Part shown: piece after piece, positions 14,360 through 38,304 of the stretch
How the letters are laid out: each line of letters begins with the position of its first letter
Position numbering within the stretch: position 1 is the stretch's first letter
Source of the DNA: Bacteroidales bacterium
Lineage (GTDB): Bacteria > Bacteroidota > Bacteroidia > Bacteroidales > UBA932
NCBI GenBank assembly: GCA_017438975.1
Contig: JAFRUH010000025.1
Coordinates: forward strand, 62,001-126,000
Reading direction: 5' to 3'
Length of the DNA stretch: 64,000 bases
Made by a program: the position numbers and the translations under genes
Notes under the pieces: model-generated
Told to the model about the DNA's origin: nothing
The model's input: the letters and a program-made list of their open reading frames with translations, nothing else
The model's database searches: none

Positions 14360-14392
14360 TTTGGTGAATTGGACGAAATAACCTTACCTTTG
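14360..14392 (+). promoter_or_regulatory. Promoter of the pyr operon
   Basis: TTTG at 14360-14363, a 21-bp spacer and TACCTTTG at 14385-14392 fit the Bacteroidota -33/-7 consensus. Transcription would begin near 14397-14400, giving a leader of about 125 bases before pyrC that contains a short ORF and a terminator hairpin. Confidence 0.75.
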
Positions 14393-14408
14393 CGAAAATT
14401 GTGTCCAG

Positions 14409-14489
14409 ATGATCCGAGTCTTCAGAATCCAGCCTTTGTGCTCCGCAAGTTCCGACGAAATCCTCGTTTCATCTGTTATTTGTTTTTAA
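14409..14489 (+). CDS. Putative pyr operon leader peptide, 26 codons
   Basis: ATG at 14409, about 10 bases after the predicted transcription start, opens a frame of 26 codons ending in a TAA at 14487-14489. Its last codons (GTT ATT TGT TTT) form a U-rich tract at 14475-14487, and the terminator stem begins three bases after the stop. A ribosome finishing this ORF would cover the 5' arm of the hairpin. No Shine-Dalgarno site is visible, as is common in this phylum. The ORF is supported by position and geometry only. Confidence 0.4.
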   Translation: MIRVFRIQPLCSASSDEILVSSVICF

Positions 14490-14492
14490 TCC

Positions 14493-14520
14493 AGACAGCC
14501 TTCAGGGTTGTCTTTTTTTT
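14493..14520 (+). terminator. Intrinsic terminator / attenuator just upstream of pyrC
   Basis: Arms 14493-14500 (AGACAGCC) and 14506-14513 (GGTTGTCT) form an 8-bp stem with one G-T pair and the five-base loop TTCAG, followed by eight T residues at 14513-14520. The pyrC ATG follows at 14524. A terminator between a promoter and the first gene of a biosynthetic operon implies regulated read-through. Confidence 0.7.
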
Positions 14521-14523
14521 GGG

Positions 14524-15801
14524 ATGATGACGCAGACGCTGCTGCTTAGGGGCGGACTCGTAGTGACGGGTTCCGGAAGCCGGAAGGAGGATATCCTGGT
14601 CCGGGACGGGCGCATCGCCCTGACGGGTCCGGGCATCTCCGCTCCCGCGGGTGCTGAAATCCTCGATCTGACCGGGAAGACGGTCGTTCCCGCCTTCGCC
14701 GATCTCCATGTCCACTTCCGGGAGCCGGGATATTCTTATAAGGAAACGATCCGGACCGGGAGTCTCGCCGCCGCCCGCGGCGGATATACCCTTGTCTGCA
14801 CGATGCCGAATCTGAACCCCGTCCCGGACTCGCCCGAAACGCTTGCCATCGAACAGGAGATCATCGACAGGGACGCCGTCATCACGGTGCTCCCCTACTG
14901 CGCGATCACAAAGGGACGGAAAGGGCTTGAAACGGTTGATTTCAAGTCGCTCAAGGGTCACTGCGTCGCTTTTTCCGACGACGGGAGCGGGGTCCAGTCC
15001 GACGGGATGATGCGGAAAGCCATGGAGGCCGCAGCAAAGGAAGGGGTCATCATCGCCGCCCACTGCGAAGACAACACCCTCCTGAGGGGCGGATACATCC
15101 ACGACGGAAGATACGCATCCCTGCACGGTCACCGGGGAATCTGCTCCGAGAGCGAATGGAAACAGATTGCGAGAGACCTGGAACTCGCAGGGGAAACAGG
15201 CTGCCGCTACCATGTCTGCCATATCTCGACGAAAGAAAGCGTAGCAATCATCCGGGAGGCTAAACGGCGCGGGGTCCCCGTCACCTGTGAAACGGCTCCC
15301 CACTATCTGACCCTCTGCGAAGACGATCTCCGCGAGGAAGGACGTTTCAAGATGAATCCGCCCCTCAGGAGCGCCGAAGACCGCTCGGCCCTGATCGAAG
15401 GACTGATCGACGGGACGATTGACGCCATCGCCACGGACCATGCTCCGCATTCGGCCGAAGAGAAATCCCTCGGTCTGGAAAAAAGCGCGATGGGGATCGT
15501 CGGCCTCGAGACCTCCTTCCCGGTCCTCTATACCTCGCTTGTCAAGACCGGCATTCTCTGCCCGGAAAGGCTCATAGAGGCCATGAGCGAAGCCCCGAGA
15601 AGGATTTTCGGGCTCGGAGGCGGACTCGCCCCCGGCTGTCCTGCCGACATTGCCGTCATCGATACGGAGCACCCGTTCACGATCGACAGCCGGACCTTCC
15701 TCTCGAAGGGGAAAGCCACTCCGTTCGACGGTTGGAACGTATATGGAAAAATCATCCTGACCCTCAGGGGCGGGGTGACGGTATATAAAGAAATAGGTTA
15801 A
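14524..15801 (+). CDS. pyrC: Dihydroorotase
   Basis: Cyclises N-carbamoyl-aspartate to dihydroorotate. The protein is 425 residues, the long amidohydrolase-type dihydroorotase, with the metal motif DLHVHFREPG (His62, His64), the FSDDGSG and AAHCEDN segments and a late TDHAPHS. First gene of the pyr operon, with its start three bases after an attenuator-like U tract. A second Met follows immediately, so the true start could be either ATG. carA begins one base after the stop. Confidence 0.95.
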   Translation: MMTQTLLLRGGLVVTGSGSRKEDILVRDGRIALTGPGISAPAGAEILDLTGKTVVPAFADLHVHFREPGYSYKETIRTGSLAAARGGYTLVCTMPNLNPVPDSPETLAIEQEIIDRDAVITVLPYCAITKGRKGLETVDFKSLKGHCVAFSDDGSGVQSDGMMRKAMEAAAKEGVIIAAHCEDNTLLRGGYIHDGRYASLHGHRGICSESEWKQIARDLELAGETGCRYHVCHISTKESVAIIREAKRRGVPVTCETAPHYLTLCEDDLREEGRFKMNPPLRSAEDRSALIEGLIDGTIDAIATDHAPHSAEEKSLGLEKSAMGIVGLETSFPVLYTSLVKTGILCPERLIEAMSEAPRRIFGLGGGLAPGCPADIAVIDTEHPFTIDSRTFLSKGKATPFDGWNVYGKIILTLRGGVTVYKEIG

Positions 15802-15802
15802 C

Positions 15803-16885
15803 ATGAAAAGACCGGAAAAGAAACTTGTGTTGGAAAACGGCCGGGAGTTCTACGGAACCGGGTTCGGAGCGGACTGCCGCAAGGTCTGCGAAATCGTTTT
15901 CAACACGTCCGTAGTCGGGTATCAGGAGATCCTCTCCGATCCGTCTTACGCTGAACAGATTGTCGTGATGACCTATCCCCTCATCGGGAACTACGGGATC
16001 ACGGACGAGGATTTCGAGTCCAGGACGCCTTCGATCGGCGGCCTTGTCGTACGGGAATGCTGCGACACTCCGAGCAATTTCCGCTATACGAAGACCCTGG
16101 AAGAGGAATTGGAGGAGCACGGAATCCCTTGCCTGAGCGGCATCGACACCCGGCTGCTGACGAAGGTGATCCGCGATTCGGGCCGGCCGATGGCGGCTAT
16201 CGTCGAGGCCGGGATGCCGAAGGAGGAAGCCCTCGCCCTGATCGCCTCCACCCGTCGTCCGGACGATCTCGTCGCACGGGTCAGTTGCAGGAAGAGATGG
16301 GTTACGCGCACCTCGAACCACAGGTTCCATGTCGTCGCCGTCGACTGCGGAATCAAGTACAGCATCATCCGGATCCTGAACGGACTGGGATGCAACGTGA
16401 CGATCGTCCCCTTCTCGACTCCGGCGAAAGATATCCTCGCTTTCAATCCGGACGGCGTCCTTCTGTCGAACGGACCTTCTTCCGCCCTGGAAGTACCGGA
16501 AGTCCTTTCCCTTCTGAATGAGTTGAAGGGGAAGCTCCCCATCCTCGGGATCGGACTCGGGCAGGAAGCGATCGGCCTTTCCTACGGAGCCGTCCTTGAG
16601 CCGATCGGCTGCGGCTTCCACGGGGACCATCCGGTGCGTGACCTTTCGTCCGGCAGGATCAACATCGCCGTGCTCAACCAGAGTTATGCCTTCAGGACGG
16701 TCGAAGGGACCGCGCTGAAAGCGACCCACGCCCTCGTTCCGGAAGGATTCGTCGTCGGATTCGAAAACCGTGAAGACCGGGTTTTCGGCGTCCAGTTCCA
16801 CCTGGAATCCGCCCCCGGCCCGACGGACAACCGGTATTTGTTTGACAGGTTTATCCAAATGATGGAGGAAATGCCCCATGCCTAG
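15803..16885 (+). CDS. carA: Carbamoyl phosphate synthase small subunit, glutaminase nucleophile missing
   Basis: CarA normally hydrolyses glutamine and channels ammonia to CarB. This 360-residue copy has the full N-terminal CarA domain and C-terminal class I amidotransferase fold. The nucleophile elbow that normally reads GICLGHQ is GIGLGQE: the Cys is Gly251 (codon GGA at 16553-16555), two base changes from a Cys codon. The adjacent His-Gln is Gln-Glu, SNGPGDP is SNGPSSA and the QNHGFA segment is changed. The His333-Glu335 pair in FHLES is kept. It overlaps carB by eight bases. I infer a structural or allosteric subunit for an ammonia-using synthase. Confidence 0.9.
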   Translation: MKRPEKKLVLENGREFYGTGFGADCRKVCEIVFNTSVVGYQEILSDPSYAEQIVVMTYPLIGNYGITDEDFESRTPSIGGLVVRECCDTPSNFRYTKTLEEELEEHGIPCLSGIDTRLLTKVIRDSGRPMAAIVEAGMPKEEALALIASTRRPDDLVARVSCRKRWVTRTSNHRFHVVAVDCGIKYSIIRILNGLGCNVTIVPFSTPAKDILAFNPDGVLLSNGPSSALEVPEVLSLLNELKGKLPILGIGLGQEAIGLSYGAVLEPIGCGFHGDHPVRDLSSGRINIAVLNQSYAFRTVEGTALKATHALVPEGFVVGFENREDRVFGVQFHLESAPGPTDNRYLFDRFIQMMEEMPHA

Positions 16886-19800
16886 AAGAACCGACATCAA
16901 GAAAGTCATGGTCATCGGCTCCGGTCCGATCGTCATCGGCCAGGCCGCGGAATTCGATTACGCGGGAACGCAGGCCTGCCTTGCGCTCAAGGAAGAAGGA
17001 TACCAGGTCATCCTGGTCAATTCCAATCCGGCTACGATCATGACCGACACCAATATCGCCGACAAGGTCTATATGGAGCCGCTCAAGCTCGACTATATCG
17101 CCAAGATCATCCGCTATGAGCGCCCGGACGCCCTCGTCCCGGGACTCGGCGGACAGACCGGACTGAACCTGGCCGTCCAACTGGCCAAGAAAGGCATCCT
17201 CGAGGAATGCGGCGTCGAAATCCTCGGCACCTCTTTCCAGAATATCGAGAAGGCGGAAGACCGGGAACTGTTCAAGGAACTCTGCATTTCCATCGGCGAG
17301 CCGGTCATCCCGTCCGAAATCTGCTACAGTGTCGAAGAAGGGGTCGCCGCAGCAGAAAAGATCGGCTACCCGGTCGTCCTCCGGCCCGCCTTCACCCTCG
17401 GCGGAACAGGCGGTGGTTTCGCCGACGACGAAGAGCAGCTCCGCGACATGATGCGGAACGCACTCTTCCTCTCACCGGTCCACGAGGTGCTCGTCGAAAA
17501 GAGCATCAAGGGATACAAGGAGATCGAATTCGAGGTCATGCGCGACCGCAACGACACGGCCATCGCCATCTGCTCGATGGAGAATATCGACCCCGTCGGC
17601 ATCCACACGGGCGATTCCATGGTCGTCGCCCCGGCCCAGACCCTGACGGACAAGGAATACCAGATGCTGCGGGACAGCGCCCTCAAGCTGATCCGCGCCC
17701 TCGATATCGAAGGCGGATGCAACATCCAGTTCGCCCTGGACCCGCTCTCTTTCAAGTACTATATCATCGAGGTCAATCCGCGGGTTTCACGGTCTTCCGC
17801 CCTTGCTTCGAAGGCCAGCGGATTCCCGATCGCCCGGGTGACCGCCAAGATCGCCGCCGGACTGACCCTGGACGAAATCACCATCGCCGGGGCTCCTGCC
17901 TGCTGCGAACCCGCCATAGACTATGTCGTCACCAAGGTGGCCCGTTTCCCCTTCGACAAGTTCAGCGAAGCCTCCAACGAACTCGGCACCCAGATGAAGG
18001 CGACCGGTGAAGTGATGAGCATCGGGCGGACCCTCGAAGAAAGCATCCTCAAGGCGATGCGCTCCCTCGAAACCGGCTGCTGCCATATCCACAAGAAGAA
18101 ATTCGATTCCTGGACCGAGGAAGAACTCCTCTCCTATATCAGCAAGCCTACGGACGACCGGATCCACGCCATCGCCCAGCTCCTGCGCCTGAGGATCGAC
18201 CTTTCCCGGATCTATGACCGGACCAAGATAGACATGCTCTTCCTCGAGAAAATCTACAACATCGTCCGGATGGAAAGGCGCGTCAAGGCCGCTCCGCATG
18301 ATATCGATGTCCTCCGCGAAGCCAAGCGGATGGGATTCGGAGACCAGTTCATCGGTGAGCTATGGGGCGTTTCGGAAGCGGATATCATCCGGCTCCGGTT
18401 CCGGGAAGGCATCCTCCCGGTCTACAAGATGATCGACTCCTGCTGCGCCGAGCACGAAACCTATGTCCCCTATTTCTACTCCACCTACGAGGAGGAGAAT
18501 GAATCCGTCCGGAGCGACCGGAAAAAGATCCTCGTCCTGGGATCGGGCCCGATCCGGATCGGACAGGGAGTCGAATTCGACTATTCGACCGTCCATGCCA
18601 TCTGGGCCATCCGCGAGGCCGGTTATGAGGCCATCATCATCAACAACAATCCGGAAACCGTATCCACGGACTATACGATCTCGGACAAGCTCTATTTCGA
18701 GCCGCTGACGACGGAGGACGTCATGAACGTCATCCACCTGGAGCGGCCGGACGGGGTCATCGTCACCCTCGGCGGCCAGACCGCCATCAACCTGGCCGGT
18801 CCCCTCGAGGAGTTCGACGTCCCGCTCATCGGAACAGGCCTCGAGGCCATCGACAATGCCGAGGACCGCAAACTTTTCGAAGCGATCATGCGACGCACCG
18901 GCATCCCGCAGCCCAAGGCCCGCGCCGTCACCGACGTCGAGGAAGGCGTCGAAGCCGCCCGTGAGATCGGCTATCCGGTCCTGGTCCGTCCGAGCTTCGT
19001 GCTGGGCGGACGGGCGATGATGATCGTCGGAAACGACGAAACCCTCCGCCACTATCTCCGGAACGCCGTGGAGATCAACGAGAAGTCCCCGGTTCTCGTA
19101 GACAAGTACATCATGGGCAAGGAGACGGAGGTCGACGCCATCTGCGACGGGAAGGATGTCTTCATCCCGGCGATCATGGAACATGTCGAGAAGACCGGAA
19201 TCCACTCCGGTGACAGTATCAGCGTCTATCCCTCCTTCAGTCTCAGCGCGAAGGTCAAGCAGGAAATCATCGACGATACCGTCAAACTAGGCCGGGAAAT
19301 CGGAATCGTCGGCCTGTTCAACATCCAGTTCATCGTGGACGCCGAGGAGAATGTGTATGTCATCGAGGTCAATCCCCGCTCCTCCCGGACCGTCCCTTTC
19401 ATTTCCAAGGCGACGGGCATCCCGATGGCCAAGATCGCGACGCGGGTCATGCTCGGCCACTCCCTCAAGGAACAGGGCATCACCGAGGTCTACTTCCCGG
19501 AGCGGAAGCGCCACTTCGTCAAGACGCCCGCCTTCTCCTTCGGAAAGATCAAGGGCATCGACACCTACCTCTCCCCCGAGATGAAATCGACCGGCGAGGC
19601 CATCGGCTACGACAATTCGCTGAACCGTGCCCTCTACAAGTCCCTCCAGGCATCCGGTATGGACGTCAAGGCTTATGGAACGATCTTCGCCACCATCGCG
19701 GACAAGGACAAGGAAGAAGCCCTTCCGCTGATCCGCCGATTCTATAACCTCGGGTTCAACATCGAAGCCACGAAGGGAACGGCTGCCTTCCTCAAGCGGA

Positions 19801-20069
19801 ACGGCATCCGGACGAAATGTCTGAGGAAACTCAGCGAGGGGAGCGACGAAATCTACCAGGCACTCCGAAAGGGTCATGTCAAATACGTCATCAATACGAT
19901 CGACCTCAATCAGCGGAGCAGCCATCTGGACGGCTATGAGATCCGCCGGACCGCCGTCGAGAACAACGTGACGGTCTTTACGGCCCTCGAAACGGTCCGC
20001 GTGCTCCTGGACGTGCTGGAAGAGATCACACTCGGCATCTCCACCATCGACGAAGAATACAAGAAATAA
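16878..20069 (+). CDS. carB: Carbamoyl phosphate synthase large subunit
   Basis: Makes carbamoyl phosphate from bicarbonate, ammonia and two ATP. The 1063 residues contain two homologous ATP-grasp halves (each opening with a GSGPIxIGQ motif, near residue 14 and near residue 555), an oligomerisation segment between them and a C-terminal MGS-like allosteric domain. Length and motifs are canonical, including IEVNPRVSRSSALASKASG. The start overlaps carA and its TAA shares a base with the pyrK ATG. Since CarA has lost its Cys, this subunit would have to use free ammonia or another donor. Confidence 0.96.
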   Translation: MPRRTDIKKVMVIGSGPIVIGQAAEFDYAGTQACLALKEEGYQVILVNSNPATIMTDTNIADKVYMEPLKLDYIAKIIRYERPDALVPGLGGQTGLNLAVQLAKKGILEECGVEILGTSFQNIEKAEDRELFKELCISIGEPVIPSEICYSVEEGVAAAEKIGYPVVLRPAFTLGGTGGGFADDEEQLRDMMRNALFLSPVHEVLVEKSIKGYKEIEFEVMRDRNDTAIAICSMENIDPVGIHTGDSMVVAPAQTLTDKEYQMLRDSALKLIRALDIEGGCNIQFALDPLSFKYYIIEVNPRVSRSSALASKASGFPIARVTAKIAAGLTLDEITIAGAPACCEPAIDYVVTKVARFPFDKFSEASNELGTQMKATGEVMSIGRTLEESILKAMRSLETGCCHIHKKKFDSWTEEELLSYISKPTDDRIHAIAQLLRLRIDLSRIYDRTKIDMLFLEKIYNIVRMERRVKAAPHDIDVLREAKRMGFGDQFIGELWGVSEADIIRLRFREGILPVYKMIDSCCAEHETYVPYFYSTYEEENESVRSDRKKILVLGSGPIRIGQGVEFDYSTVHAIWAIREAGYEAIIINNNPETVSTDYTISDKLYFEPLTTEDVMNVIHLERPDGVIVTLGGQTAINLAGPLEEFDVPLIGTGLEAIDNAEDRKLFEAIMRRTGIPQPKARAVTDVEEGVEAAREIGYPVLVRPSFVLGGRAMMIVGNDETLRHYLRNAVEINEKSPVLVDKYIMGKETEVDAICDGKDVFIPAIMEHVEKTGIHSGDSISVYPSFSLSAKVKQEIIDDTVKLGREIGIVGLFNIQFIVDAEENVYVIEVNPRSSRTVPFISKATGIPMAKIATRVMLGHSLKEQGITEVYFPERKRHFVKTPAFSFGKIKGIDTYLSPEMKSTGEAIGYDNSLNRALYKSLQASGMDVKAYGTIFATIADKDKEEALPLIRRFYNLGFNIEATKGTAAFLKRNGIRTKCLRKLSEGSDEIYQALRKGHVKYVINTIDLNQRSSHLDGYEIRRTAVENNVTVFTALETVRVLLDVLEEITLGISTIDEEYKK

Positions 20070-20806
20070 TGGAGAAACACCGTTTTACCATCGAATCCAA
20101 CCGGACCGTCGCCGCTCTCACGCACCGTCTCGTGCTGAAAGCGGATGACCCGGAGCTGGTCGTCGGAGGCGAATTTGTCAACCTTTCCCTCGACGGGTTC
20201 TTCCTGCGGCGCCCCCTCTCCCTCTGCGACCGGGAACCGGGCCGGATCACGCTCCTCTACAAGACCGTCGGCAAAGGGACGGAAGCCCTTTCCGCCCTCC
20301 GGGAGGGAGAAGTGCTGGATGTCCTGACCGGCCTCGGCAAGGGATTCGATGCGGCAGCCTGCCGGAAACGGGCCCTCCTTGTCGCGGGAGGCCTCGGTGC
20401 GGCCCCGCTTTACCTTCTCTGCAAAGAACTGAAGGAACGGGGACGACATGTCACCGCCGTTCTCGGCTTCAACAAGGCTGAGGAGATTGTGCTCGAAGAG
20501 GAATTCCGCGCCCTCTGCGACAAGGTGGTTCTCGCGACCCTAGACGGTTCCGCCGGGGTAAAAGGATTCGTCACCGACGCACTCTCGACCCTGGATCCGG
20601 GCTGGGACTATTTCTATACCTGCGGCCCGCTCGTCATGATGAAAGCCGTCTGCCGGGCTCTGGAAGGGCCCGGTGAGGCCAGCCTCGAAGAGAGGATGGG
20701 ATGCGGAGCCGGATTCTGCTATTGCTGTACCTGCGAGACCGTCTCCGGCCCGAAACGGGTCTGCATGGACGGTCCGGTCTTCAAAAAGGAGGAACTGACA
20801 TGGTAA
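20069..20806 (+). CDS. pyrK: Dihydroorotate dehydrogenase electron transfer subunit
   Basis: Carries electrons from PyrD to NAD+ through FAD and a [2Fe-2S] cluster. The 245-residue protein has a ferredoxin reductase-like FAD domain (RRPLSL), an NAD domain (LVAGGLGAAPLYLL) and the four cluster cysteines Cys212, Cys217, Cys220 and Cys232, the spacing expected for PyrK. An extra Cys219 and Cys222 are present. Its presence shows that PyrD is the class 1B, NAD-linked type. Overlaps both neighbours. Confidence 0.95.
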   Translation: MEKHRFTIESNRTVAALTHRLVLKADDPELVVGGEFVNLSLDGFFLRRPLSLCDREPGRITLLYKTVGKGTEALSALREGEVLDVLTGLGKGFDAAACRKRALLVAGGLGAAPLYLLCKELKERGRHVTAVLGFNKAEEIVLEEEFRALCDKVVLATLDGSAGVKGFVTDALSTLDPGWDYFYTCGPLVMMKAVCRALEGPGEASLEERMGCGAGFCYCCTCETVSGPKRVCMDGPVFKKEELTW

Positions 20807-21711
20807 AGGATCTTTCCGTCCATCTGGCGGGCCTAAGGCTCTCCAACCCGGTCATTCCGGCCAGCGGAACCTTCGGATTCGGACTTGAACTCTCCGGCAG
20901 CTTCGACCTGAACGTCCTCGGCGGGATTTCCCTGAAGGGGACGACGCTGGAGCCCCGGTTCGGGAACCCGACGCCCCGGGTCGCCGAATGTGAAGGCGGG
21001 ATGATCAATTCCGTCGGACTCCAGAACCCCGGAATCGAAGCGCTGGTCTGGGAAAAGGTTCCTGCACTCAGGGATTGTTACAGAGGCGCCGTCATCGCGA
21101 ATATCAGCGGTTTTTCGGTCGATGAGTACCGGACCTGCTGCGCCCTCGCCGACCGCTGCGACGGAATCGACCTGATCGAGGTCAACGTCTCCTGCCCGAA
21201 TGTCCATAACGGCGGGATGGCCTTCGGGACGGATCCCGCTTCGGCCGCCGCCGTAACCCGCGCGGTCAGGGAGGTCTGCCGGAAACCGGTCTTCATCAAG
21301 TTGAGTCCCAACGTGACGGACATCGTGTCCATCGCCCGTGCCTGCGAAGACGCCGGGGCCGACGGCCTGACCCTTGTCAACACCTTCCTCGGGATGCGCA
21401 TCGACATCCAGCGGCGGAAGCCGGTCCTCGCGAACACGACGGGCGGATTCTCCGGCAGGGCCGTCTTTCCGGTCGCCCTCAGGATGGTCTGGCAGGCCGC
21501 CAGAGCCTGCAGGATCCCGATTATGGGCTGCGGCGGAGTGGCTTCGGCGGAGCAGGTCGTTGAAATGATGATGGCCGGGGCGACGGCGGTCCAGATCGGG
21601 GCCGAAAACCTCCGGAATCCCTTTGCCTGCCCCGAAATCATCGCCGCCCTCCCCTCCGTCATGGACCGGCTTGGCATTTCAAGACTCGAAGAAATCATCG
21701 GAACCGTATGA
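20800..21711 (+). CDS. pyrD: Dihydroorotate dehydrogenase, class 1B catalytic subunit
   Basis: Oxidises dihydroorotate to orotate with FMN. It has 303 residues starting at the ATG at 20800, which overlaps the pyrK stop; longer frames upstream are pyrK antiphase. The active-site segment NVSCPNVHNGG carries the catalytic Cys of class 1 enzymes, and the FMN-phosphate region reads PIMGCGGV. It overlaps pyrF by four bases. Confidence 0.95.
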   Translation: MVKDLSVHLAGLRLSNPVIPASGTFGFGLELSGSFDLNVLGGISLKGTTLEPRFGNPTPRVAECEGGMINSVGLQNPGIEALVWEKVPALRDCYRGAVIANISGFSVDEYRTCCALADRCDGIDLIEVNVSCPNVHNGGMAFGTDPASAAAVTRAVREVCRKPVFIKLSPNVTDIVSIARACEDAGADGLTLVNTFLGMRIDIQRRKPVLANTTGGFSGRAVFPVALRMVWQAARACRIPIMGCGGVASAEQVVEMMMAGATAVQIGAENLRNPFACPEIIAALPSVMDRLGISRLEEIIGTV

Positions 21712-22406
21712 ACAGAGACGTCATCATAGCCTGCGACTTCAGCTCCAGGCAAGCCACCCTTTCCTTCCTCGACCGGTTCGGGGAAGGACGCAAGCCTTTC
21801 GTCAAGATCGGCATGGAACTCTTTTACGGAGAGGGTCCCTCGATCGTCCGGGAAATCAAGGCCCGCGGCCACCGGATCTTCCTGGACCTCAAGCTCCACG
21901 ACATTCCGAACACAGTCCGGAAAGCCATGAAGGTCCTTTCCGCCCTGGACGTGGACCTGGTCAATGTCCATGCCGCCGGGACGGTCGCCATGATGAAGGC
22001 AGCCCTCGAAGGACTGACGCGGGAAGACGGGACCCGGCCCCTGCTGATCGCCGTCACCCAGCTGACTTCCACCGGGGATGAAGCGCTCCGGAACGAGCTC
22101 CTGATCGGAGCCGGCATGGAAGAAACCATCCTCCGGTACGCCCGGAACGCACGCGAAGCGGGACTGGACGGAGTCGTCTGTTCTCCGCTCGAAGCAGGCA
22201 TCGTCAAGGAAGCCTGCGGAAAGGATTTCCTGACCGTCACTCCTGGCATCCGTTTTGCGGACTCCGCATCGGACGACCAGGTTCGGATCACCACCCCTGC
22301 CCGCGCCCGGGAACTGGGGTCGGATTACATTGTCGTCGGCCGGCCGGTCACGGCCGCCCCGGATCCCGTAGCCGCCTACCGGAGGTGCCTGGAAGAATTT
22401 GTTTGA
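21708..22406 (+). CDS. pyrF: Orotidine 5'-phosphate decarboxylase
   Basis: Decarboxylates OMP to UMP, the final step of the pathway. The 232-residue protein has the diagnostic DLKLHDIPNTV motif near residue 64 with the catalytic Asp-Lys-Asp set, the early VIIACDFSS Asp and the phosphate-binding VVGRPV near the end. It overlaps pyrD in ATGA fashion and pyrE follows one base after its stop. Confidence 0.96.
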   Translation: MNRDVIIACDFSSRQATLSFLDRFGEGRKPFVKIGMELFYGEGPSIVREIKARGHRIFLDLKLHDIPNTVRKAMKVLSALDVDLVNVHAAGTVAMMKAALEGLTREDGTRPLLIAVTQLTSTGDEALRNELLIGAGMEETILRYARNAREAGLDGVVCSPLEAGIVKEACGKDFLTVTPGIRFADSASDDQVRITTPARARELGSDYIVVGRPVTAAPDPVAAYRRCLEEFV

Positions 22407-22407
22407 T

Positions 22408-23037
22408 ATGAAAAAGGATATTGCAAAACAACTGCTCTCGATAGGAGCCGTTTTCCTGAGGCCGGAAGAGCCCTTTACCTGGGCAAGCGGCATCAAGAGC
22501 CCGATCTACTGTGACAACCGGCTGACCCTCTCGGCCCCCGCCGTTCGGGAGAAAGTCGAGGCTGGACTCGCAGCCCTGGTCCGGAAATACCATCCCGACT
22601 GCGAGATGCTGATGGGAACATCGACCGCCGGCATCGCCCATGCGGCCATCACGGCAACCCTGCTCGGCCTTCCGATGGGGTATGTCCGCTCGGAAGCCAA
22701 GTCCCACGGACGGACCAACCGGATCGAAGGAAGGATGGACCCGGGGACGAAAGTCGTCGTCATCGAGGACCTTATCTCGACCGGCGGAAGCGCCATCGAC
22801 GTCGTCGAAGCGCTCCGGGAAGCCGGGGCCGAAGTCCTCGGTATCGTCAGCATCTTTACCTATGGAATGAAACGGGGTCTCGAACGGATCGCGGCCGCCG
22901 GAACGGTCAACCATTCCCTCTGCGACCTGGATTCCCTCGTGGAAACGGCCGTGGATGAAGGCTATATCGCTCCGCAGTGGAAAGAGCGCATCCTCGCCTT
23001 CCGCGACAACCCTTCGGATGAAAGTTGGATTCAATAA
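22408..23037 (+). CDS. pyrE: Orotate phosphoribosyltransferase
   Basis: Transfers orotate to PRPP to form OMP. The 209-residue protein starts at 22408; an in-frame ATG at 22399 lies inside pyrF and is less likely. The PRPP loop VVVIEDLISTGGS is present near residue 115, preceded by a YVRSEAKSHG catalytic loop. It is followed by pyrB after ten bases. Confidence 0.95.
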   Translation: MKKDIAKQLLSIGAVFLRPEEPFTWASGIKSPIYCDNRLTLSAPAVREKVEAGLAALVRKYHPDCEMLMGTSTAGIAHAAITATLLGLPMGYVRSEAKSHGRTNRIEGRMDPGTKVVVIEDLISTGGSAIDVVEALREAGAEVLGIVSIFTYGMKRGLERIAAAGTVNHSLCDLDSLVETAVDEGYIAPQWKERILAFRDNPSDESWIQ

Positions 23038-23047
23038 AAAGCAGGAT

Positions 23048-24127
23048 ATGAAGCATCTCATCGATCCCATGGACCTGACCAAGGAAGAACTTGACCAGAT
23101 CATCGCGCTGGCGGAAGACATCATCGCCAACCGGGAAAAATACCAGGAAATCCAGGCCCACCGGAAACTGGCTACCCTCTTCTATGAACCCAGCACGCGT
23201 ACGCGCCTGAGTTTCACCGCGGCCATGATGGAACTCGGCGGCAACGTCCTCGGGTTCTCGGACGCGAAAAGCAGTTCCGTAAGCAAAGGGGAAAGCGTGC
23301 AGGACACGGTGCGCGTCGTAGGCTGTTTCGCCGACGTCATCGCCATGCGGCACTATATCGAAGGGGCCCAGCTCTACGCCTCCGAAGTCTCCAAAGTCCC
23401 GATCATCAACGCCGGGGACGGCTCCCACAGCCACCCGACCCAGACCCTGACGGACCTTCTGACCATCCAGCGCGAACTCGGCCGGATCGACGGGATCACG
23501 ATCGGTTTCTGCGGCGACCTGCGTTTCGGCAGGACGGTCCATTCCCTGATCAAGGCCCTGTCCCGTTACAAGGACATCCGGGTCGTCCTGATCGCCCCGG
23601 ACGAGTTGAAACTGCCCGATTATATCAAGCAGGACGTCTGCGACCGGCTCGGAATCCGCTACCGCGAAGTATCCTCGATGGAAGAAGTCATTTCGGAACT
23701 CGACGTCCTGTATATGACCCGCGTCCAGAAAGAGCGCTTCCTGGACCAGGACGAATTCGACCGCGTCAAGGACAGTTTCGTCCTGGACGCCGCCAAGATG
23801 TCCCTCGCCAAAGAGAAGATGGCCGTGCTCCATCCCCTTCCCCGCGTCAACGAAATCCTGACCGAAGTCGACGCCGATCCGAGAGCGGCGTATTTCCGCC
23901 AGGTCGAGAACGGAAAATTCGTCCGGATGGCCCTCATGACCAAGCTGATCGAATGGAAAGACGATCCGGCCCATGCGATGCCCGCCCACGAGATTCCGGT
24001 CACGGATCCCTCGCTCAGATGTCCCAATCCACGCTGTATCTGCAACAATGAGCACGCACCCTACCGTTTCCGCAGGAGCGGGAGCGGAACACTGCGGTGC
24101 TGGTACTGCGATGCTAAGGCTAAATAA
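23048..24127 (+). CDS. pyrB: Aspartate carbamoyltransferase fused to a PyrI-like zinc module
   Basis: Condenses carbamoyl phosphate and aspartate. The first ~310 residues are a canonical PyrB (EPSTRTRLSF carbamoyl phosphate loop, HPTQTLTDL, HPLPRVNEI). The C-terminal ~45 residues add four zinc-type cysteines, Cys325-x4-Cys330 and Cys351-x2-Cys354, in CPNPRCICNNE and LRCWYC contexts. This is the zinc domain normally found at the C terminus of the separate regulatory chain PyrI. The N-terminal effector-binding domain of PyrI is absent. ATG 23048 was chosen; the longer frame runs inside pyrE. The domain may allow trimer-trimer contacts without allosteric nucleotide control. Confidence 0.92.
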   Translation: MKHLIDPMDLTKEELDQIIALAEDIIANREKYQEIQAHRKLATLFYEPSTRTRLSFTAAMMELGGNVLGFSDAKSSSVSKGESVQDTVRVVGCFADVIAMRHYIEGAQLYASEVSKVPIINAGDGSHSHPTQTLTDLLTIQRELGRIDGITIGFCGDLRFGRTVHSLIKALSRYKDIRVVLIAPDELKLPDYIKQDVCDRLGIRYREVSSMEEVISELDVLYMTRVQKERFLDQDEFDRVKDSFVLDAAKMSLAKEKMAVLHPLPRVNEILTEVDADPRAAYFRQVENGKFVRMALMTKLIEWKDDPAHAMPAHEIPVTDPSLRCPNPRCICNNEHAPYRFRRSGSGTLRCWYCDAKAK

Positions 24128-38274: not shown

Positions 38275-38304
38275 GAAAAATCCCGATTAGATTCAACCGG
38301 GTAA

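Follow-up and report, generated by a model that had tools for sequence, protein, structure and literature searches.

A putative UTP-sensing, translation-coupled attenuator ahead of the UMP operon in Bacteroidales

Introduction

Why should a predicted transcription terminator stand between a promoter and the first gene of an operon for UMP synthesis? The question is raised by a 64,000-nucleotide stretch of the genome of a Bacteroidales bacterium (hereafter the window), in which a hairpin followed by a run of T residues directly precedes pyrC. UTP-sensing attenuation is textbook knowledge for enteric bacteria, and in the rph-pyrE attenuator of E. coli the translated frame stops a few bases short of the hairpin. 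For Bacteroidota, none of the matches listed in a search of open-access titles and abstracts described attenuation of this type; the large prediction sets PMC8040213 and PMC4833913 could include such leaders in their tables. As far as those listed matches show, the kind of attenuator described here is new for the phylum. On sequence analysis, we consider that the window leader is probably a translation-coupled transcription attenuator that senses UTP in the manner of pyrBI and pyrE.

Anatomy of the leader and its operon

The features of the locus are given in Table 1. The original prediction had placed a promoter, a 26-codon ORF, a U-rich tract and a terminator-like hairpin with eight T residues ahead of a complete UMP operon, and the sequence confirmed each of these. 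The close-packed row of genes covers all six steps to UMP by NCBIfam matches, with pyrK matching only below the curated cut-offs. The proposed spacing was also borne out, as the leader stop codon (TAA, ending at 14489) and the hairpin stem (from 14493) are three bases apart. The stem has the 8 bp first described, but 9 if the closing U-G pair is counted. A GGG lies between the T run and the pyrC ATG.

Table 1. Features of the pyrC leader and of the operon behind it, in window coordinates
Feature	Position	Strand	Remarks
Promoter, Bacteroidota-type	14360..14392	+	TTTG 14360-14363, 21-nt spacer, TACCTTTG 14385-14392; read from sequence
Leader ORF	14409..14489	+	ATG 14409, TAA 14487-14489; 26 codons + stop; product MIRVFRIQPLCSASSDEILVSSVICF
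U-rich tract over last leader codons	14466..14487	+	presumed UTP-sensitive slow zone for RNA polymerase
Terminator hairpin (predicted)	14493..14513	+	AGACAGCC...GGTTGTCT; 8 pairs, 9 with closing U-G; loop 3
Run of eight T	14513..14520	+	read from sequence
pyrC, dihydroorotase	14524..15801	+	NCBIfam TIGR00857 above cut-off
carA, carbamoyl-phosphate synthase small subunit	15803..16885	+	NCBIfam above cut-off
carB, carbamoyl-phosphate synthase large subunit	16878..20069	+	NCBIfam above cut-off
pyrK, dihydroorotate dehydrogenase electron transfer subunit	20069..20806	+	E 5e-61, below curated cut-off
pyrD, dihydroorotate dehydrogenase	20800..21711	+	NCBIfam above cut-off; start picked by eye
pyrF, OMP decarboxylase	21708..22406	+	NCBIfam above cut-off
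pyrE, orotate phosphoribosyltransferase	22399..23037	+	TIGR00336 above cut-off
pyrB, aspartate carbamoyltransferase	23048..24127	+	TIGR00670 above cut-off; start picked by eye

Folded together with its flanks, the hairpin reaches -11.5 kcal/mol (z -3.9), a value equalled by none of 200 shuffles; the whole 124-nt leader folds less strikingly (z -1.9), with 10 of 200 shuffles as good. Scanning both strands of the window returned five strong hairpin-plus-T sites (dG ≤ -8); at the pyrC site alone, a TAnnTTTG promoter precedes the hairpin by 40-180 nt and a long ORF follows it within 60 nt. TAnnTTTG is given as the housekeeping promoter consensus of a flavobacterium in a section of PMC9723704. Elsewhere in the window, a 363-codon ORF has its ATG 8 nt behind a strong hairpin with a T run (38282-38301, minus strand), with no TAnnTTTG promoter in range.

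Occurrence of the element across Bacteroidota

The window PyrC type (E ≤ 1e-60) is patchily distributed. It was found in 47 of 151 genomes of the genus, 9 of 149 of the family and 6 of 393 of the order (the window's own genome counted in each), and also in 17 of 40 genomes in the genus of G034 and 80 of 150 in the family of G359. Named loci with this type come from uncultured rumen and gut Bacteroidales, Alistipes, Tidjanibacter, other Rikenellaceae and Muribaculaceae. From 179 Bacteroidota loci, 166 distinct pyrC upstream regions were obtained after removal of 12 duplicates and one region shorter than 120 nt; the fetched stretches L221, L227 and L228, which gave no tblastn match, had been excluded beforehand.

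Hairpins with a T tail and a folding energy of at most -8 kcal/mol were sought within 350 nt around the pyrC start; 122 of the 166 regions held one, compared with 10 of 830 dinucleotide shuffles. When an exact TAnnTTTG at the right distance was also demanded, the figures were 118 and 0, respectively. The element test was further applied to 472 ORFs of the larger Bacteroidota loci, a control from which the window's own pyrC was left out because a longer reverse-strand ORF overlaps it. This gave 22 matches, comprising 19 pyrC, two pyrK (L014, L019) and one purE (L035).

No element was detected in 40 of the 166 regions, seven of which show by eye a bulged or large-loop hairpin with T residues, left unscored (L041, L097, L165, L196, L220, L224, L229). 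Twelve further loci with an element-less pyrC were followed downstream, some only as far as the contig end: the element stands before pyrK in two and before pyrD in one, and was seen in none of the other nine. In five loci whose pyrC is without it, the element precedes pyrK (L014:13350, L019:11498, L262:2174, L264:1556) or pyrD (L268:2313). Given the 472-ORF control and this follow-up, the element is associated mainly with the heads of pyr operons.

In other Bacteroidales, the full anatomy was absent before pyrK in 27 loci taken from the top-ranking of 233 matching genomes (30 loci were read, and three inside pyrC operons were set aside); some of the hairpins there look like the ends of the preceding gene. 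On a quick tree of PyrC built from 78 chosen rows, the element label changes 12 times among Bacteroidota rows (L086, counted as element-less, does have a leader and a hairpin after a 5-of-6 promoter), and a single origin of the attenuator is therefore unsupported. Nor did this tree give a direction for transfer of the operon between Clostridia and Bacteroidota. As a separate observation, the predicted PyrC of L015, L018, L020 and L049 starts about 50 residues late and misses its N-terminal part, the late starts falling close before an LPAF(C/A)D(I/L)HVHFR stretch.

The leader ORF and its stop codon

Two of the 126 hairpin regions have no exact promoter, which left 124 leaders. The short ORF proved to be kept in relatives: a frame of at least 8 codons, with its ATG close to the promoter and its stop at -15 to +45 of the hairpin start, occurs in 121 of the 124, against 31.8 expected when the leader behind its ATG is shuffled. 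The three leaders with no such ORF (L160, L168, L169) were left out of the codon counts. The stop falls at -14 to +13 in 112 of the 121. Its exact place varies between groups, with a TGA at the loop and the start of the 3' arm in L004-type leaders and a TAA inside the 5' arm in Alistipes-type leaders, and in L020 and L049 the frame passes through the hairpin, as in E. coli pyrL. The leader peptides are dissimilar from group to group, whereas the frame and the point where it ends are conserved. The leaders of L004, L006, L007, L102, L105 and L134, of 9-30 codons, have their stop at or in the hairpin.

According to PMC4824070, an E. coli terminator is nearly silenced by the translating ribosome if the stop codon lies close to it, termination is near-full beyond about 30 bp, and intermediate distances show a strong sequence dependence. 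By this comparison, most of the stop-to-hairpin distances measured here would fall within the silenced range.

A CATA motif also recurs in the leaders. Of 42 representatives, 20 have it 9-33 nt downstream of the leader AUG; shuffles give 5.4, and among 436 ordinary ORF starts 29 have it. Its commonest offset from the AUG is 17, so that AUA is codon 7 (for example in L013, L125 and L180). Its position is spread alike from the AUG (sd 6.4 nt) and from the promoter (6.9), neither being singled out as the anchor. The window leader (14409-14489) has no CATA.

A U-rich tract at silent positions

In 18 representatives (80% clustering with a lenient score), the U fraction reaches 0.66 in the bin -15 to -11 before the hairpin, against mostly 0.12-0.30 beyond -25, and C falls to 0.03 in the same bin. 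This low C suggests UTP rather than CTP as the likely signal. Codons were counted in 42 representatives (70% clustering with gap and mismatch costs). Third positions in the last 27 nt hold 177 U to 41 C, against 203 to 234 in earlier codons (p = 3e-18), and 34 of 36 scorable leaders show the silent switch toward U. The window leader has 5 U to 0 C at third positions in its U tract and 2 U to 8 C earlier (p = 0.007). Since the shift sits at silent positions, it points to selection on the RNA and not on the peptide.

No such switch was seen in 17 ordinary ORFs ending beside terminators (28:38 versus 107:148, p = 1), and 32 ordinary nearby terminators have A-rich 5' flanks (U 0.23 versus 0.46, p = 4e-9). 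In E. coli pyrL the tract is also rich in U, yet silent positions in the last 27 nt hold 1 U to 5 C, so that the silent switch by itself does not test for the pyrBI type.

Six of the 42 representatives (L226, L004, L102, L025, L105 and L134) have a weak U tract or none, with no 12-nt stretch holding more than 5 U. Among these, the short leaders L004, L102, L105 and L134 may sense a signal other than UTP. That short leaders with no clear U tract, such as L004, still put their stop at or in the hairpin would suit a translation-coupled attenuator that reads the general state of translation or growth (ribosome supply or initiation rate), its U tract only slowing the polymerase so that the ribosome stays close. 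We regard this as unlikely, given that 21 of the 22 element matches in the loci tested stand before pyr genes and that silent positions are enriched in U and depleted of C.

PyrR and the clostridial relatives

Control of the terminator by PyrR or by some other RNA-binding protein had been raised as an alternative to the ribosome. A recurring core in the 5' arm of the hairpin, roughly GRYRRCY, and the recurrence of CATA near leader codon 7 could be read in its favour. A search for PyrR, however, returned no match in the window's own genome and none over the cut-off in 16 Bacteroidota genomes that carry this type of pyrC; weak matches below the cut-off in six of the 16 are presumably other phosphoribosyltransferases. 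PyrR control of the window leader was rejected on these results. The likeness to a PyrR-binding loop first seen at 14488-14498 did not hold up either, because this stretch is largely the 5' arm of the stem and no PyrR was found in the genome. Nor would a protein account for the kept leader ORF and its stop position, and overall we judge protein control to be very unlikely.

No Rfam family reaches its gathering score in the window; at E ≤ 10, six unrelated families appear, far below threshold. As for the Rfam PyrR element itself, it is found neither in the window nor in 13 clostridial loci, five of them in PyrR-bearing genomes. This insensitivity means that its silence in the window says little.

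The clostridial relatives of this pyrC frequently have hairpin-plus-T leaders (21 of 43), a likeness to the Gram-positive PyrR attenuators, and five of the six genomes behind these relatives carry PyrR over the cut-off. The Bacteroidota element, in contrast, has a leader ORF and neither PyrR over the cut-off nor an antiterminator. A different leader element, built around CGATACNGNGATATCGGCAAGAT and ending in CGGCAAGAT, lies upstream of pyrC in nine of 44 clostridial loci (L033, L038, L052, L057, L066, L070, L074, L077, L089). We take it to resemble PyrR sites; the Rfam PyrR element was not reported in L038, L052, L070, L074, L077 or L089, which bear it.

Hairpin structure and antiterminator search

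The covariation expected of a conserved stem was seen in part. Hairpin sets were chosen by first letters and length, and pairing percentages are high by construction, the hairpins having originally been detected as perfect stems. One type supplied 28 distinct hairpins, in which three of the seven pairs are changed on both sides; the score for covariation and the count of changed cells both exceed those of all 500 shuffles. The count of pairs changed on both sides is, however, unremarkable (186 of 500 shuffles as high), and 18 distinct Alistipes-type hairpins give a weak signal (17 of 500). A general pause hairpin before the U tract was rejected, with a mean z of +0.06 over 42 leaders and a z of -0.7 for the small stem in the window.

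An upstream partner for the 5' arm, which would act as an antiterminator, was found in none of 42 leaders at z < -2 (mean z +0.43), in agreement with the original prediction. Its absence fits the ribosome as the opener of the terminator. As no leader has a clearly better-than-chance partner, the element is distinct from attenuators of the trp/his type. The short ORF ahead of a terminator does recall such leader-peptide attenuation, of which a section of PMC9723704 gives hints before amino-acid operons in a flavobacterium. Here, however, the last leader codons hold F 46, I 32, S 30, V 27, L 25 and others with no dominant amino acid, no regulatory codon is held in common, no antiterminator partner was found and the product of the pathway is UMP, so that control by an amino acid is extremely improbable. 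We give almost no credence to arrest of the ribosome by a nascent leader peptide on a pyrimidine ligand, since the stretches such as FWQQDYWSGF common to Alistipes-type leaders are set against peptides that vary between groups and U in the RNA as the common feature.

Proposed mechanism and known systems

Taken together, the kept hairpin, the leader ORF, the position of its stop, the silent U choice and the lack of both antiterminator and PyrR favour the translation-coupled, UTP-sensitive model that had been proposed for the leader. From the observed anatomy, conservation and pyr association, we infer the following course of events. RNA polymerase would start a few nucleotides after the TACCTTTG box, and a ribosome would load at the leader AUG. 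With ample UTP, the polymerase would clear the U tract ahead of the ribosome, the hairpin would fold and transcription would stop at the T run before pyrC. With scarce UTP, the polymerase would be slowed in the U tract, allowing the ribosome to catch up and reach the stop codon. Its footprint on the 5' arm would then block the hairpin, and pyrC-carA-carB-pyrK-pyrD-pyrF-pyrE-pyrB would be transcribed. The dependence on UTP is deduced from the U tract and the pathway.

By sequence and folding, the locus has a predicted terminator of the pyrBI type between promoter and first pyr gene; by position, it has a leader ORF whose ribosome could cover the hairpin (121 of 124 leaders); and a U tract upstream of the hairpin is present in the window and in most representatives. 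E. coli pyrBI, with its leader pyrL, is alike in its leader ORF, its U-rich tract before the hairpin, its intrinsic terminator inside or beside the ORF and the gene start directly after. Read in the same way, pyrL also has no stronger upstream partner for the 5' arm, and its hairpin lies inside the leader. We saw no sequence relation between the two, which belong to different phyla and have different promoter types. Relative to the hairpin start, the stop lies at +43 in pyrL, whereas it is usually at -14 to +13 here (112 of 121), and the pyrL U tract is further from the hairpin (-30 to -16) and has no silent U switch. The element described here would also control a full UMP operon headed by pyrC, unlike the pyrBI attenuator. 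The window resembles rph-pyrE in that the frame closes a few bases short of the hairpin, but the upstream frame there is a full gene (rph) and not a 26-codon leader. Within the phylum, the closest comparison is with the flavobacterial amino-acid leader-peptide attenuators, for which attenuation was inferred in PMC9723704; these serve amino-acid operons, and the relevant section names no pyr case.

For pyrL, a need for tight coupling of transcription and translation is described in PMC5021804, and B. subtilis is reported as uncoupled in PMC7819879. None of the open-access papers listed in our searches was a direct study of this coupling in Bacteroidota. The mechanism proposed here needs a ribosome close to the polymerase, and the element is therefore a natural quantitative test of coupling in this phylum. 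If the model is true, transcription and translation are closely coupled in Bacteroidota, and the control of pyrimidine supply with no PyrR in a major gut group is explained. With roughly even confidence, we extend the model to many gut Bacteroidales, including the Alistipes-type group and the family of the window. These would use a UTP-sensing, ribosome-dependent terminator where their clostridial relatives have PyrR, with a geometry of its own (the stop at or in the hairpin, and a short form with no U tract), and CATA may help to time the ribosome relative to RNA polymerase.

Other observations

The single purE match, in a Muribaculaceae locus (L035:17172-17522), has a TAACTTTG promoter and a 37-codon leader ORF (MRQQSHSILRKPRRKRKAFRAVMNGEACGYACRIVNR); the stop codon of this ORF starts 6 nt ahead of a strong hairpin, and the sequence separating the two is A-rich. 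It is possibly a purine counterpart of the pyrC leader, represented by one case; ordinary terminators share the A-rich approach of this hairpin.

The C-terminal tail of the window's PyrB contains Cys pairs (CPNPRCIC...CWYC); it has the look of a zinc site and may resemble PyrI.
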